Source: Oscillochloris sp. (GTDB lineage Bacteria; Chloroflexota; Chloroflexia; Chloroflexales; Chloroflexaceae). Taken from it: DNA of 64,000 bases. Within the stretch, counting starts at the first letter, position 1. Each line of letters opens with the position of its first letter. Positions 6,890 to 11,746 of this stretch are shown here, in pieces. The notes under the pieces were generated by a model, which searched no databases, was not told the origin of the DNA, and worked only from the letters and a program-made list of their open reading frames with translations. The translations under genes were made by a program, and so were the position numbers. Location: assembly GCA_012032775.1 (NCBI GenBank), contig JAAUQO010000001.1, positions 1 through 64,000 of the forward strand, written 5' to 3'.

Positions 6890-7630
6890 GTGCTGAAGCC
6901 TCTGGGCCATCCCGGCCCCCAGCAATTCGCCCCAACGGGCATAGCCGGCCGGGCCGGGATGAAAACGATCGGCGCAGAACTGGTCGGGCGTGACCGGGAT
7001 CGTAATCGGCAGATGCACAACAGCGGCCAGTTTTGGGGCAAGATCGGCTGCCGCCGCATCCAGCAAGCGCGCACGCAGGCCAAGCACCGCCCGCAGCGGC
7101 TGCGGCAACGCAGGAAAGCGCGCCAGCGGCGGCACAGCGGCGAGAAACACCCGCGCCGGCCCGACCCGCTCGCGCAACGCGGCAACCAGCGCCCTAAGAT
7201 CAGCGACCCAGCGCTCGGGGGAGCGCAATTTCAGGCTGTCGTTGACACCCAATGCCAGCAACGCAACATCGACTGGTTCAGGCGGCAGATTCGGCACCAG
7301 AATGCGGCGCGTGCTTGATGCCGTCATCCCGATCCGGCCCTCGGCGCGCCAACGCACCGCTCGCCCAAGCTGCACCGCCAGCGCCTCGGCCGTCCGCCCG
7401 GCCAGACCATCGGCGTGTGTAGCTGCGCCGACACCGGCCACAGTGGATTCGCCGAGAATCAGGAAATGCAACGGCGGGCCGGAAGCATCAACCAGGCCCG
7501 CCGACGGGCCGGCGGCGCCAGGCAATTGCGGCGTGTTCCGGCGCACCATGCGCCCCTGGTAGAGCAATAACGGCCCTAACGCCAGCGATGCATTCGATGC
7601 GAGCCGCAAGCCAAATCTTCCCTGCGCCAT
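6881..7630 (-). CDS. SGNH/GDSL-type esterase
   Basis: LILGESTVAGVGA, LLALGVNDSLKL, DRFHPGPAGYARWGELL blocks; start chosen at MAQGRFG. Confidence 0.8.
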   Translation of the reverse strand: MAQGRFGLRLASNASLALGPLLLYQGRMVRRNTPQLPGAAGPSAGLVDASGPPLHFLILGESTVAGVGAATHADGLAGRTAEALAVQLGRAVRWRAEGRIGMTASSTRRILVPNLPPEPVDVALLALGVNDSLKLRSPERWVADLRALVAALRERVGPARVFLAAVPPLARFPALPQPLRAVLGLRARLLDAAAADLAPKLAAVVHLPITIPVTPDQFCADRFHPGPAGYARWGELLGAGMAQRLQHDA

Positions 7631-9026: not shown

Positions 9027-9669
9027 CCTCCTCATGCAACACATCGCGCGCCGCCCGAATCAACTCCTCCAGGCGCTTACGTCGCTGCGCCGACAGCGGC
9101 TCACGGATATGCAACTCGACCCCCGCCGCCAGACGGATACGCTGCCAGTGCTCCGCCACAGGCGCCGGATGCTCGTCGGAACTCACACGCTCCGCATCGC
9201 CAGAATCGTCGGCATCCGTCTGATGCGGAAAGAATTCGTAACGCCCCAACTGCAACGGTGCCGGGTTGATCGATAATGGGTTCCCCAGCACCGGATGCGA
9301 CAACCCGGCGCTATACGACTCGCCCGCCTCGTGGAGTGCGCCCCGCCGTGCATCCGACGGCCTGCGCCGCAAACCACGCTCATTCCCGCCAAGTGCGAAC
9401 GGCGACCCCTGGTGTTGATCCGAGTGCGGCTGTGCTGCTGCCGAATCGGCATCCAAACGCTCACGAATCACCCGTAACGGCAAGTATTCCGCCTTGAGTT
9501 CGGCGATCATCCGCAGCCGCTCAAGGTGAGGTTTGCCGTATCGCGCATACCGGCCCTGCGTATCCGGCTGCGGCAACAATCCCTCGCCGGTGTAATAGCG
9601 AATGGTGCGCGGCGTCACTCCCGCCAGTTCCGCTAATTCGCCGATCGTATATTCCGGTTCGTTCGCCAT
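9022..9669 (-). CDS. MerR family transcriptional regulator
   Basis: YTIGELAELAGVTPRTIRYYTGEGLLPQPDTQGRYARYG N-terminal HTH. Confidence 0.85.
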   Translation of the reverse strand: MANEPEYTIGELAELAGVTPRTIRYYTGEGLLPQPDTQGRYARYGKPHLERLRMIAELKAEYLPLRVIRERLDADSAAAQPHSDQHQGSPFALGGNERGLRRRPSDARRGALHEAGESYSAGLSHPVLGNPLSINPAPLQLGRYEFFPHQTDADDSGDAERVSSDEHPAPVAEHWQRIRLAAGVELHIREPLSAQRRKRLEELIRAARDVLHEEE

Positions 9670-9777
9670 ATGTCCCCCATAGTGCAATTCCGAATCGGTA
9701 TACCGCATTGCTTCAGGCTATTCCAATGCGGCAAATCTGTACCCTCACGCAAACAAAGCTGCGTGAACCGGATCAGA

Positions 9778-10422
9778 TCAAGGCAACCCGTATTTTACAA
9801 TGCCGGCACATCTTCGCGCCCCGACAATCGCATCGATCAAGCCATAGGCCCGGGCCTCGGCCGGGCTGAGAAAGCGGTCGCGATCGAAATCCTGGGCGAT
9901 TTTCTCCAACGTCTGGCCGGTATCACGCGCCAACAATTCACGACACAACTGCTGCTTGCGCAACAACTCCCGCGCCATAATCTCAACATCAGGCGCATAA
10001 CCCTGCATGCCCTGCGCCGCCGGATGCATATGAATGGTCGCGTTCGGCAGGCTATAACGCCGCTCCCGCGCCCCACCGGCCAGCAGCACCGTTGCCATGC
10101 TTGCCGCTATCCCGACACATACCGTCGATACCGGCGCATTGATCGCCTGCATCGTATCGTAAATTCCTAAGCCCGCCGTTACCGAGCCGCCCGGACTATT
10201 GATATAAAGCCGGATCTCGTCGTCGGGATTTTCGCTGTCCAGGTATAACAACTGCGCGATGATCAGCGCCGCCGCTTGATCATCGATCGGCGCACTCAGC
10301 ATCACAATCCGCGCCTGCAACATGCGCGAAAAGAGATCGAAGCTGCGCTCGCCACGCGTTGTTCGTTCAACCACGGTCGGCACCAGCAATGCATGCGCAA
10401 CCCTATTCCAAGATTCCATCAC
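9778..10422 (-). CDS. clpP: ATP-dependent Clp protease proteolytic subunit
   Basis: INSPGGSVTAGLGIYDTMQ, GIAASMATVLLAGG, ATIHMHPAAQG, DRDRFLSPAEARAYGLID. Confidence 0.9.
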   Translation of the reverse strand: MMESWNRVAHALLVPTVVERTTRGERSFDLFSRMLQARIVMLSAPIDDQAAALIIAQLLYLDSENPDDEIRLYINSPGGSVTAGLGIYDTMQAINAPVSTVCVGIAASMATVLLAGGARERRYSLPNATIHMHPAAQGMQGYAPDVEIMARELLRKQQLCRELLARDTGQTLEKIAQDFDRDRFLSPAEARAYGLIDAIVGARRCAGIVKYGLP

Positions 10423-10466
10423 CGCCTCCTGTGCTTGCCCTCAGCTCTTTTGCGGCCATAACAACA

Positions 10467-10517
10467 TGACACAACAACGTAATACTGCTATTATGACAGT
10501 ATTACGTCGTTGTGTCA
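10467..10517. promoter_or_regulatory. Long inverted repeat (21-bp arms, 1 mismatch, 9-nt spacer) between clpP and the tRNA array
   Basis: tgacacaacaacgtaatactg - ctattatga - cagtattacgtcgttgtgtca. Confidence 0.85.
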
Positions 10518-10549
10518 ATAGTCTTGCAGGCGGTGTTGCGGTTAACCGC

Positions 10550-10637
10550 TGGCCGAGCACGATGGAGTTGAACCATCCACAGTCGCCCGTGGCCCCGGTC
10601 TTCCAGGCCGGTTACCGCACCGGCGGTGGCGTGCTCG
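10550..10637 (-). tRNA. tRNA-Ser(GGA)-like, non-canonical 8/4 fold
   Basis: CGAGCACG/CGTGCTCG acceptor, D-arm ACCGC-CGGT-GCGGT, anticodon loop CTGGAAG, long variable arm, ATGG-TTCAACT-CCAT, G73, encoded CCA. Confidence 0.75.
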
Positions 10638-10641
10638 ATTG

Positions 10642-10726
10642 TGGAGGGCGAGCGCGGAATCGAACCGCCGGCCGCTGCGGCCGTCGCGTGTTCAAGACGC
10701 GATGCGCCACCCGGCGCTGCCCGCCC
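10642..10726 (-). tRNA. tRNA-Ser(TGA)-like, non-canonical 8/4 fold
   Basis: GGGCGGGC/GCTCGCCC acceptor, D-arm GCGCC-GGGT-GGCGC, loop CTTGAAC, variable arm GGCCGCAGCGGCC, GCGG-TTCGATT-CCGC, CCA. Confidence 0.75.
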
Positions 10727-10731
10727 TTTTA

Positions 10732-10820
10732 TGGTGCCGTGGGTGGGTTCGAACCCACATGTTCGCTTAGGAACGCCTGTTTTTAAGACAGGCCGGTCTG
10801 CCAATTCCACGCACCACGGC
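10732..10820 (-). tRNA. tRNA-Leu(TAA), canonical
   Basis: GCCGTGG/CCACGGC acceptor, loop CTTAAAA, long variable arm, GTGGG-TTCGAAC-CCAC, ACCA. Confidence 0.92.
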
Positions 10821-10828
10821 AATTATCA

Positions 10829-10916
10829 TGGCCGAGCGCAGCGGGATCGAACCGCCCACGGGTTCCCGTGGCCCCAGGTTTCGAAGCTGGTTGAGACACC
10901 TGTCTCGGTGCGCTCG
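10829..10916 (-). tRNA. tRNA-Ser(CGA)-like, non-canonical 8/4 fold
   Basis: CGAGCGCA/TGCGCTCG acceptor, D-arm GAGAC-AGGT-GTCTC, loop TTCGAAA, variable arm CCACGGG-AA-CCCGTGG, GCGG-TTCGATC-CCGC, G73, CCA. Confidence 0.75.
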
Positions 10917-10919
10917 ATC

Positions 10920-10995
10920 TGGTGTGCCCGCTCGGAATCGCACCGAGACCTCCCGATCTTCAAACGGGCGCGCAGACTGACTACGCCACAGGCAC
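10920..10995 (-). tRNA. tRNA-Phe(GAA), atypical D- and T-loops
   Basis: GTGCCTG/CGGGCAC acceptor, loop TTGAAGA, T-arm CTCGG-TGCGATT-CCGAG, ACCA. Confidence 0.75.
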
Positions 10996-10998
10996 ATC

Positions 10999-11075
10999 TG
11001 GGGCCGCCGGCCGGTGCTGCCCCGGCGATATCCTCGTTACCAACGAGGCGCTCTGGCTGGCTGAGCTACGGCGGC
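10999..11075 (-). tRNA. tRNA-Thr(GGT), atypical T-loop GGCAGCA
   Basis: GCCGCCG/CGGCGGC acceptor, D-stem GCTC/GAGC, CCTCG-TTGGTAA-CGAGG, GCCGG-GGCAGCA-CCGGC, CCCA. Confidence 0.75.
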
Positions 11076-11078
11076 TCG

Positions 11079-11153
11079 TGGTCGGCGCGGCTGGATTCGC
11101 ACCAGCGACCGGCGAGGTGTAAGCTCGCTGCTCTCCTACTGAGCTACACGCCG
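11079..11153 (-). tRNA. tRNA-Val(TAC), T-loop TGCGAAT
   Basis: CGGCGTG/CGCGCCG acceptor, GCGAG-CTTACAC-CTCGC, GCTGG-TGCGAAT-CCAGC, ACCA. Confidence 0.85.
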
Positions 11154-11157
11154 AATG

Positions 11158-11230
11158 TGGTCGAGACGTCTGGAGTTGCACCAGATCCGCGTGCGTATCA
11201 GCACGTGCGCTGCTCCTGCGCTACGTCTCG
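11158..11230 (-). tRNA. Probable tRNA-Ile(GAT) with a 6-nt anticodon loop as sequenced
   Basis: CGAGACG/CGTCTCG acceptor, CGTGC-TGATAC-GCACG, CTGG-TGCAACT-CCAG, ACCA; one missing T would restore TTGATAC. Confidence 0.6.
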
Positions 11231-11231
11231 C

Positions 11232-11331
11232 TGGCTCTCCAGGCAGGTTTCGTTAGCGAAGCTGGCGCGCAGTGCTTTCCTGCAACCCTCCGGTTAACAG
11301 CCGGGCACTCTCCTGGTTGAGCTACTGGAGA
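11232..11331 (-). tRNA. tRNA-Asn(GTT)-like with a 31-nt T-loop
   Basis: TCTCCAG/CTGGAGA acceptor, D-stem GCTC/GAGT, loop CTGTTAA, T-stem GCAGG/CCTGC closing AAAGCACTGCGCGCCAGCTTCGCTAACGAAA, GCCA. Confidence 0.6.
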
Positions 11332-11335
11332 TCGG

Positions 11336-11409
11336 TGGTGGAGCCACGGGGAGTCGCACCCCGGCCTTCTCCTTGCAAGGGAGTCGCTCGCCTCCTGAGC
11401 TATGGCCCC
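11336..11409 (-). tRNA. tRNA-Ala(TGC), T-loop TGCGACT
   Basis: GGGGCCA/TGGCTCC acceptor, CTCC-CTTGCAA-GGAG, CGGGG-TGCGACT-CCCCG, ACCA. Confidence 0.88.
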
Positions 11410-11411
11410 GT

Positions 11412-11486
11412 TGGTCAGGCCGGCAGGATTCGCACCTGCGACCGCTCGTCCCCCAGACGAGTGCGCTCCTTCTGCGCCACGGCCTG
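11412..11486 (-). tRNA. tRNA-Pro(GGG), T-loop TGCGAAT
   Basis: CAGGCCG/CGGCCTG acceptor, CTCGT-CTGGGGG-ACGAG, GCAGG-TGCGAAT-CCTGC, ACCA. Confidence 0.85.
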
Positions 11487-11746
11487 TAATTTGTATGTTT
11501 CGGTTCGTTTCGGCAACATAGCCGGCGACACAAACCAGGCTGGCCGGCACCACGACAGAAGTCGCTCGATTAAACTCTATAGAACCTTACTGAACCATTC
11601 ACAGCCAAATAGTAGCACGCCGGCCAACAAAACAACTCCGCCTTTCGACGGAGTTGCTGCGCATAAAATGAACTGCCGGATGTCGTGATATCGGTCTCGG
11701 CGCTTACTTCAGCAACACCGAAGCAATTCCGCATTCTGCATTGACT

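Follow-up and report, generated by a model that had tools for sequence, protein, structure and literature searches.

Allo-tRNA-like serine tRNAs in a tRNA array of an Oscillochloris genome and the wider context of the array

The array and its serine tRNAs

The window (the whole stretch of DNA analysed, 64,000 nucleotides of an Oscillochloris contig) carries 11 tRNA genes within 937 nt (10550-11486), which meets the criterion for a tRNA array unit (dense and of mixed kinds). The genes are listed below with the candidate regulatory site that lies upstream of them. R1 is a covariance model described in the next section.

10550-10637, minus strand: tRNA-Ser(GGA); 8/4 fold, CCA encoded, G73; 96.8 bits with R1 (R1 training sequence)
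10642-10726, minus strand: tRNA-Ser(TGA); 8/4 fold, CCA encoded, U73; 57.7 bits with R1, from which it was held out
10732-10820, minus strand: tRNA-Leu(TAA); canonical T-loop
10829-10916, minus strand: tRNA-Ser(CGA); 8/4 fold, CCA encoded, G73
10920-10995, minus strand: tRNA-Phe(GAA); G55 T-loop TGCGATT, AG in the D-loop
10999-11075, minus strand: tRNA-Thr(GGT); T-loop GGCAGCA (G54, G55, G58), A18
11079-11153, minus strand: tRNA-Val(TAC); T-loop TGCGAAT, D-loop AGTAGGA (A18-G55)
11158-11230, minus strand: tRNA-Ile(GAT); T-loop TGCAACT, 6-nt anticodon loop
11232-11331, minus strand: tRNA-Asn(GTT); T-loop with an insert of about 30 nt
11336-11409, minus strand: tRNA-Ala(TGC); T-loop TGCGACT, D-loop AGGAGGC (A18-G55)
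11412-11486, minus strand: tRNA-Pro(GGG), the first gene of the array; T-loop TGCGAAT, D-loop AGAAGGA (A18-G55)
11582-11595, plus strand: GAACCTTACTGAAC, candidate regulatory site; match to the pattern GAACCTTWCWGAAC

The Ile gene can be drawn either with a 6-nt anticodon loop on a stem of five pairs or with an 8-nt loop on four pairs (ARAGORN gives the 8-nt loop, 'gata'). The same short insert (core CTGCGCGCCAGCTTCGCTAAC) occurs in or beside the T-loops of several array tRNAs, in two genomes and in both orientations (window 11232-11331, in the Asn gene; L053 9517, 9618 and 10214), with one copy only in the genome studied here. It looks like a tiny mobile element targeting tRNA T-loops. Between the end of the array and clpP there is also a near-perfect palindrome (10471-10517), which overlaps a TTGACA...CATAAT-like promoter and is likely to be an operator for clpP.

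A preliminary description of this DNA had proposed three serine tRNAs whose acceptor stem has 8 bp and whose T-stem has 4 bp. All three are present on the minus strand and the 8/4 fold is directly observed: the acceptor 8-mers pair (CGAGCACG/CGTGCTCG in Ser(GGA), GGGCGGGC/GCTCGCCC with one G-U in Ser(TGA), CGAGCGCA/TGCGCTCG in Ser(CGA)) and the eighth pair, 8-65, is Watson-Crick and covaries as claimed (G-C, C-G and A-U, respectively). The standard 7/5 criterion (U8 unpaired, 49-65 paired) is not met, position 8 being G, C or A and paired with 65. A 7/5 fold would place G-C, G-G and G-U at 49-65 and is poor in two of the three genes, as had been argued. The 5-bp D-stems with 4-nt NGGT loops (CGGT, GGGT and AGGT) and the long variable arm were also correctly recognized. 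The genes had been presented as three together; all are real, but Leu(TAA) intervenes and the set is only part of the 11-tRNA array. In minimum-free-energy prediction, Ser(TGA) and Ser(CGA) adopt the 8/4 cloverleaf and Ser(GGA) a different multiloop. The anticodon-stem pair 31-39 is mismatched in Ser(GGA) and Ser(CGA) (C-A and C-C), and the discriminator is G73 in two of the three genes and U73 in Ser(TGA).

ARAGORN calls Ser(TGA) alone among the three, and none of them reaches the 29-bit cut-off of the standard Rfam tRNA model. A clear preference for that model would have told against the proposed fold; the Rfam tRNA-Sec model (gathering score 47 bits) wins for all three, with 46.9, 42.1 and 41.7 bits at a relaxed threshold, and gives 49.2 bits for Ser(TGA) in another Rfam search. 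For the normal Ser(TGA) and Ser(GCT) of the genome, the standard model (60.0 and 55.2 bits) is ahead of tRNA-Sec (41.6 and 42.7 bits). The true selC gene is separate (contig C312, 71.4 bits with tRNA-Sec). tRNA-Sec usually carries a UCA anticodon and has an 8/5 branch; with serine anticodons and an 8/4 branch, the three genes differ on both points. The preliminary description had also raised the question of an unusual SerRS. None is evident: there is one full-length SerRS match in the genome, on contig C35, and it implies that a single enzyme charges both the array and the canonical Ser tRNAs, serylation itself being inferred.

The three genes share with allo-tRNAs (Mukai et al. 2017, as described in PMC7609411) the 12-bp acceptor/T branch arranged as 8/4, the long variable arm and the tight D-arm, and, as inferred from sequence alone, they are of serine type; they meet the allo-tRNA criterion of an 8/4 or 9/3 acceptor/T-stem. 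They do not meet that of a non-serine anticodon: allo-tRNAs are mostly non-serine, whereas these genes have the serine anticodons GGA, TGA and CGA, and membership is therefore only partial. They also differ in occurring in Chloroflexales, within array sets with recoded elbows, although allo-tRNA 'polycistrons' that include further irregular tRNAs are reported for soil (PMC7609411). They are allo-tRNA-like UCN-Ser members of a tRNA array, not isolated allo-tRNAs.

Sister arrays and compensatory changes

The genome includes three arrays: that of the window (C294) and two others (C283 and C49). Together these cover Pro, Ala, Asn, Ile, Val, Thr, Phe, Ser and Leu as well as Trp, Arg, Asp, Gln, Met, Glu, His, Cys and Tyr; no Gly or Lys tRNA was seen in them. 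A single array in genome G424 covers all 20 amino acids. Array tRNAs are only 51-78% identical to the canonical tRNAs with the same anticodon (for those compared), while the anticodon loops of most of them closely match the canonical ones. Searches of plasmid and phage DNA with the array of the window returned nothing, or only short similarity to ordinary tRNAs. The C283 array also includes a tRNA-Phe-like RNA (L001 6229-6322, minus strand) with a D-arm of five pairs and a four-base loop and with an extra predicted hairpin between the T-arm and the acceptor strand. HNH endonuclease genes lie in or beside arrays (L052 9516-10019, L055 1569-2075), as in mycobacterial arrays.

Orthologues from other genomes much strengthen the case for the covarying 8/4 fold. 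The model R1 was built from four 8/4 Ser genes; Ser(TGA) of the window, misplaced by MAFFT, was left out, served as a held-out test and was recovered. More 8/4 Ser genes emerged with R1 in G041, G010 and G054, as well as in G429 and G424 (another family of the same order). All 14 UCN-Ser genes from the arrays of six Chloroflexales genomes have a Watson-Crick pair at 8-65 (GC 6, AU 5, CG 2, UA 1), while 49-65 is Watson-Crick in three, G-U in four and mismatched in seven. The pair varies between genomes even within one isoacceptor (for TGA: C-G, U-A, G-C and A-U). Control Ser tRNAs behave in the opposite way, with 0/17 paired at 8-65 and 17/17 at 49-65 (all 7/5). These controls are nine genes (the two canonical ones of the same genome, AGY-Ser of the arrays and one viral Ser) plus eight housekeeping genes from array-free relatives, Ser GGA and CGA included; one Planctomycetota array Ser, which can pair either way, was excluded from both groups. 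Dealing the 8-65 partners at random over the 14 genes would give full pairing with a probability of 6!5!2!1!/14! = 2e-6, a figure that is only a guide since the sequences are related.

The fold is not limited to this order. The trn operon of Nostoc PCC 7120 includes an 8/4 Ser(UGA) (G8-C65, with A49/C65 mismatched) and a Mycolicibacterium plasmid array an 8/4 Ser(CGA); a Tolypothrix Ser(UGA) is also 8/4, though 7/5 is possible too. Judged from sequence, tRNA arrays of at least three phyla contain serine tRNAs of the 8/4 type.

The contacts between D-loop and T-loop are regarded as hallmarks of nearly all tRNAs. With a script that accepts any T-loop sequence we collected 187 tRNAs from Chloroflexales arrays, among them those of Kouleothrix aurantiaca COM-B. 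In about half of them the elbow is recoded: G18-U55 becomes A18-G55, G19-C56 becomes C19-G56 and T54-A58 becomes A54-T58. The covariation is directly observed. Where the T-loop has G55-C56 (94 tRNAs), the D-loop carries AG in 92/94 and GG without a preceding A in 4; where it has U55-C56 (83 tRNAs), GG without a preceding A is found in 75/83, the remaining eight having AGG or four-base loops. For this contrast in the D-loop GG, Fisher's test gives p=5e-35, again only a guide because of relatedness. U55-G56 is accompanied by G18-C19 in 5/5 tRNAs and G55-G56 by A18-C19 in 2/3. At 54-58 the array tRNAs have T-A (131), G-G (36) or A-T (13). In comparison, 40/40 canonical tRNAs of the same genome have a TTCRA T-loop and GG in the D-loop. 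The elbow also differs between 8/4 Ser(CGA) genes (AAGT D-loop and CGCGATA T-loop in G041, AGGT and TTCGATC in the genome studied here). Since the exchanges at three tertiary contacts are matched, the array tRNAs appear, as far as sequence can indicate, to be under selection to fold.

Two reviews on the T-loop and elbow make no mention of G55 or A18. Some related cases lie outside the order. The array of a Planctomycetota MAG, ACE_PLA31 (L068), has G55 in 29/30 scanned tRNAs, nearly all with AG in the D-loop, together with a Ser(CGA) that is possibly 8/4. One viral contig array has three G55 tRNAs. The A18-G55 elbow is not confined to arrays, since a tRNA-Met that combines G55 with A18 occurs on many viral contigs (L079-L091), usually by itself.

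The upstream motif and the Ro60-like gene

The three arrays of the genome have a motif in common, again a direct observation. The 14-mer pattern GAACCTTWCWGAAC occurs three times in the 6.27-Mb genome, once upstream of each array, while a control pattern does not occur; the exact 14-mer GAACCTTACTGAAC precedes two arrays and is absent elsewhere in the genome. These very sites served to define the pattern, which is known from this genome only, and the GAACC motif is absent at the array loci of other genomes.

Downstream of the C49 array are tRNA-like sequences with swapped halves, then the genes for a 72-aa protein whose last residue is Gly and for a 473-aa protein:

L002 7546-8967: Ro60-like 473-aa protein; fold match to Ro60/Rsr

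This Ro60-like neighbour was recognized from its predicted structure. The ten best PDB fold matches are all Ro60/Rsr (E 5e-8 to 3e-6, TM about 0.5-0.57) and the Ro60 fold criterion (a helical-repeat domain plus vWA) is met by the model, which has a pLDDT of 70 and a weak vWA half. Sequence comparison is less informative: Pfam gives no TROVE match, phmmer with the single sequence only a weak match (E=0.002), and a profile of four Ro60-like proteins has no match among PDB sequences. Relatives that are 68-73% identical are found in 3 other genomes of the 84 in the order (two families). A tRNA array precedes the gene in G000 (the genome studied here, at one of its three arrays), in G424 and in G002. 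In G424 and G002 a small protein precedes it and a Band-7 protein follows, and in G002 a DRB0094 RNA ligase (E=1e-60) lies between array and Ro60-like gene. G015 has Ro60 and a Y-RNA-like part with no tRNA array. The protein was not found in the array genomes G041, G010, G054 and G429.

Evidence for the accompanying Y RNAs is limited. The swapped-half sequence beside the C49 array scores 38.7 bits with the Rfam YrlA model, below the gathering score of 69 bits, as do those of G015 (46.4 bits) and G002 (36.7 bits), and in another array the junction of neighbouring tRNAs yields about 32 bits as well. Single-strand folding gives no support for the two permuted-tRNA Y RNAs beside Ro60 (z about 0), for which the evidence is the Rfam match together with inspection of the sequence. 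YrlA matches inside the array of the window (24.7 bits) were dismissed as chance products of adjoining tRNAs.

Around the Ro60-like gene, L002 encodes the small protein ending in Gly (7256-7474), an unknown protein (9102-9953) and a ThiF/E1-like protein (9898-10581), which may form a ubiquitin-like conjugation or sulfur-transfer unit. The 72-aa and 283-aa proteins beside it could not be named with NCBIfam, PADLOC or Pfam.

Possible roles of the arrays

Both tRNA array units and allo-tRNA-like folds are already known, and 8/4 Ser tRNAs within recoded-elbow arrays are a variant of these; the wider array context is more interesting than the three Ser tRNAs themselves. The nearest tested case is the plasmid trn operon of Nostoc/Anabaena PCC 7120, with its extra clustered tRNAs beside the housekeeping set and its 8/4 Ser(UGA). 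Its 26 extra tRNAs are normally silent, are induced by antibiotics against translation and aid survival (PMC10272220), and the operon is repressed by TrcR together with the RNA ligase gene rtcB (PMC10272220). It differs in that its elbows are canonical in 17/18 tRNAs scanned and that TrcR acts at another sequence, TGTAGTAT. Mycobacterial array units (PMC5966550) are likewise dense and include HNH genes, and the Mycolicibacterium alvei plasmid array has the 8/4 Ser(CGA), but its T-loops are canonical in 26/28 scanned and no Ro60 gene is listed in the 7-kb stretch examined. Elbow recoding is thus not needed for array function. The Rsr-YrlA-RtcBA operon (PMC7790460), activated in Salmonella by broken tRNAs, resembles the Chloroflexales loci in its Ro60 family protein and Y-RNA-like sequence, and in the RNA ligase of G002. 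The Chloroflexales loci differ in having an upstream tRNA array, a DRB0094-type ligase and, as partners, the small Gly-ending protein and Band-7 or ThiF.

With the Nostoc operon as guide, the simplest reading is a stress-inducible backup tRNA set with 8/4 UCN-Ser members, tied to RNA repair. We favour it from the combined analysis at a little better than even chances. The three genes would produce functional serine tRNAs of the 8/4 type (8-bp acceptor stem, 4-bp T-stem), the UCN readers of a clustered spare set spread over three arrays with a common regulatory site. In normal growth the set would probably be silent or expressed at a low level. Damage to ordinary tRNAs or to translation would switch it on and translation would continue while the RNA-repair/Ro60-Y RNA module dealt with damaged RNA. 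The altered frames (8/4 arm, swapped elbow pairs) would preserve the L-shape because the changes compensate each other, and whatever attacks normal tRNAs may act poorly on the spares. There are no expression or charging data for the array tRNAs, and their expression, inducibility, serylation and nuclease evasion are all inferred. Phage tRNAs evade anticodon nucleases by changes in the anticodon loop (PMC10264068), whereas most array anticodon loops are near-canonical, which counts against this kind of evasion here; escape would fit the altered contacts but not the anticodon loops. Also against a spare set tied to RNA repair is the Ro60 linkage itself, present in only 3/84 genomes of the order and at one of the three arrays of this genome.

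The array of the window could instead replace lost housekeeping genes, its tRNAs being ordinary essential decoders of drifted structure that supply isoacceptors whose canonical genes are gone. The preliminary description had asked whether canonical Ser genes exist as well; Ser(TGA) and Ser(GCT) do, but no canonical copy of Ser(GGA) or Ser(CGA) was found, nor of Pro(GGG), Ala(TGC) or Ile(GAT), and Rfam searches of the genome reveal no further Ser gene. The array may therefore be needed constantly. Array-free relatives do have canonical Ser(GGA) and Ser(CGA). However, with an assembly that is 93% complete, absence is unproven, and Ile and Ala tRNAs often lie in rRNA operons, which are lost from assemblies of this kind. 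For most other array tRNAs a canonical counterpart exists, Ser(TGA) could in principle read all UCN codons and the G424 array covers the full 20 amino acids. We consider this replacement unlikely, though it must be taken seriously. We give similarly low credence to arrays derived from plasmids or phages, whose tRNAs would survive host defences that cleave tRNA. Their spread is patchy (6/84 genomes of the order), HNH genes adjoin them as in mycobacterial arrays (PMC5966550), arrays also occur on plasmids and a viral contig, the G041 contig encodes a replication-relaxation protein, and the 68-73% identity of Ro60-like genes across two families hints at transfer. But the C294 and C283 arrays adjoin housekeeping genes (clpP and purB), no integrase or phage gene was recognized among the neighbours examined, and one regulatory motif common to three dispersed arrays is as expected of a host regulon.

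Two further possibilities carry very little weight. Low Rfam scores, the 31-39 mismatches, the Asn T-loop insertion and the odd Ile anticodon loop might suggest decaying, functionless tRNA-like genes, but the strong compensation seen at 8-65 and at three contacts of the elbow already contradicts this, and CCA is encoded and the anticodons are intact; we think it very improbable. Even less probable are aminoacyl donors for peptide or cell-wall synthesis outside translation. An altered elbow could, by inference, weaken use by the ribosome or EF-Tu, but the anticodon set is wide with normal loops and no peptide or cell-wall biosynthetic gene was recognized beside the arrays.

Beyond the stress-induced backup set, a stronger version is conceivable but doubtful: an emergency translation kit, in which a dispersed, co-regulated second tRNA set with rebuilt arm and elbow escapes nucleases and works with a Ro60-Y RNA-RNA ligase module. 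If this were true, the near-universal contacts G18-U55, G19-C56 and T54-A58 would be exchangeable in natural cellular tRNAs. The matched swaps at the elbow are a natural experiment on what keeps the tRNA L-shape, and array tRNAs are possibly useful as orthogonal scaffolds for genetic-code work. The arrays tie together 8/4 serine tRNAs, tRNA array units and Ro60/Y RNA repair, and the purpose of tRNA arrays becomes testable, including in Nostoc, whose manipulable trn operon also holds an 8/4 Ser.
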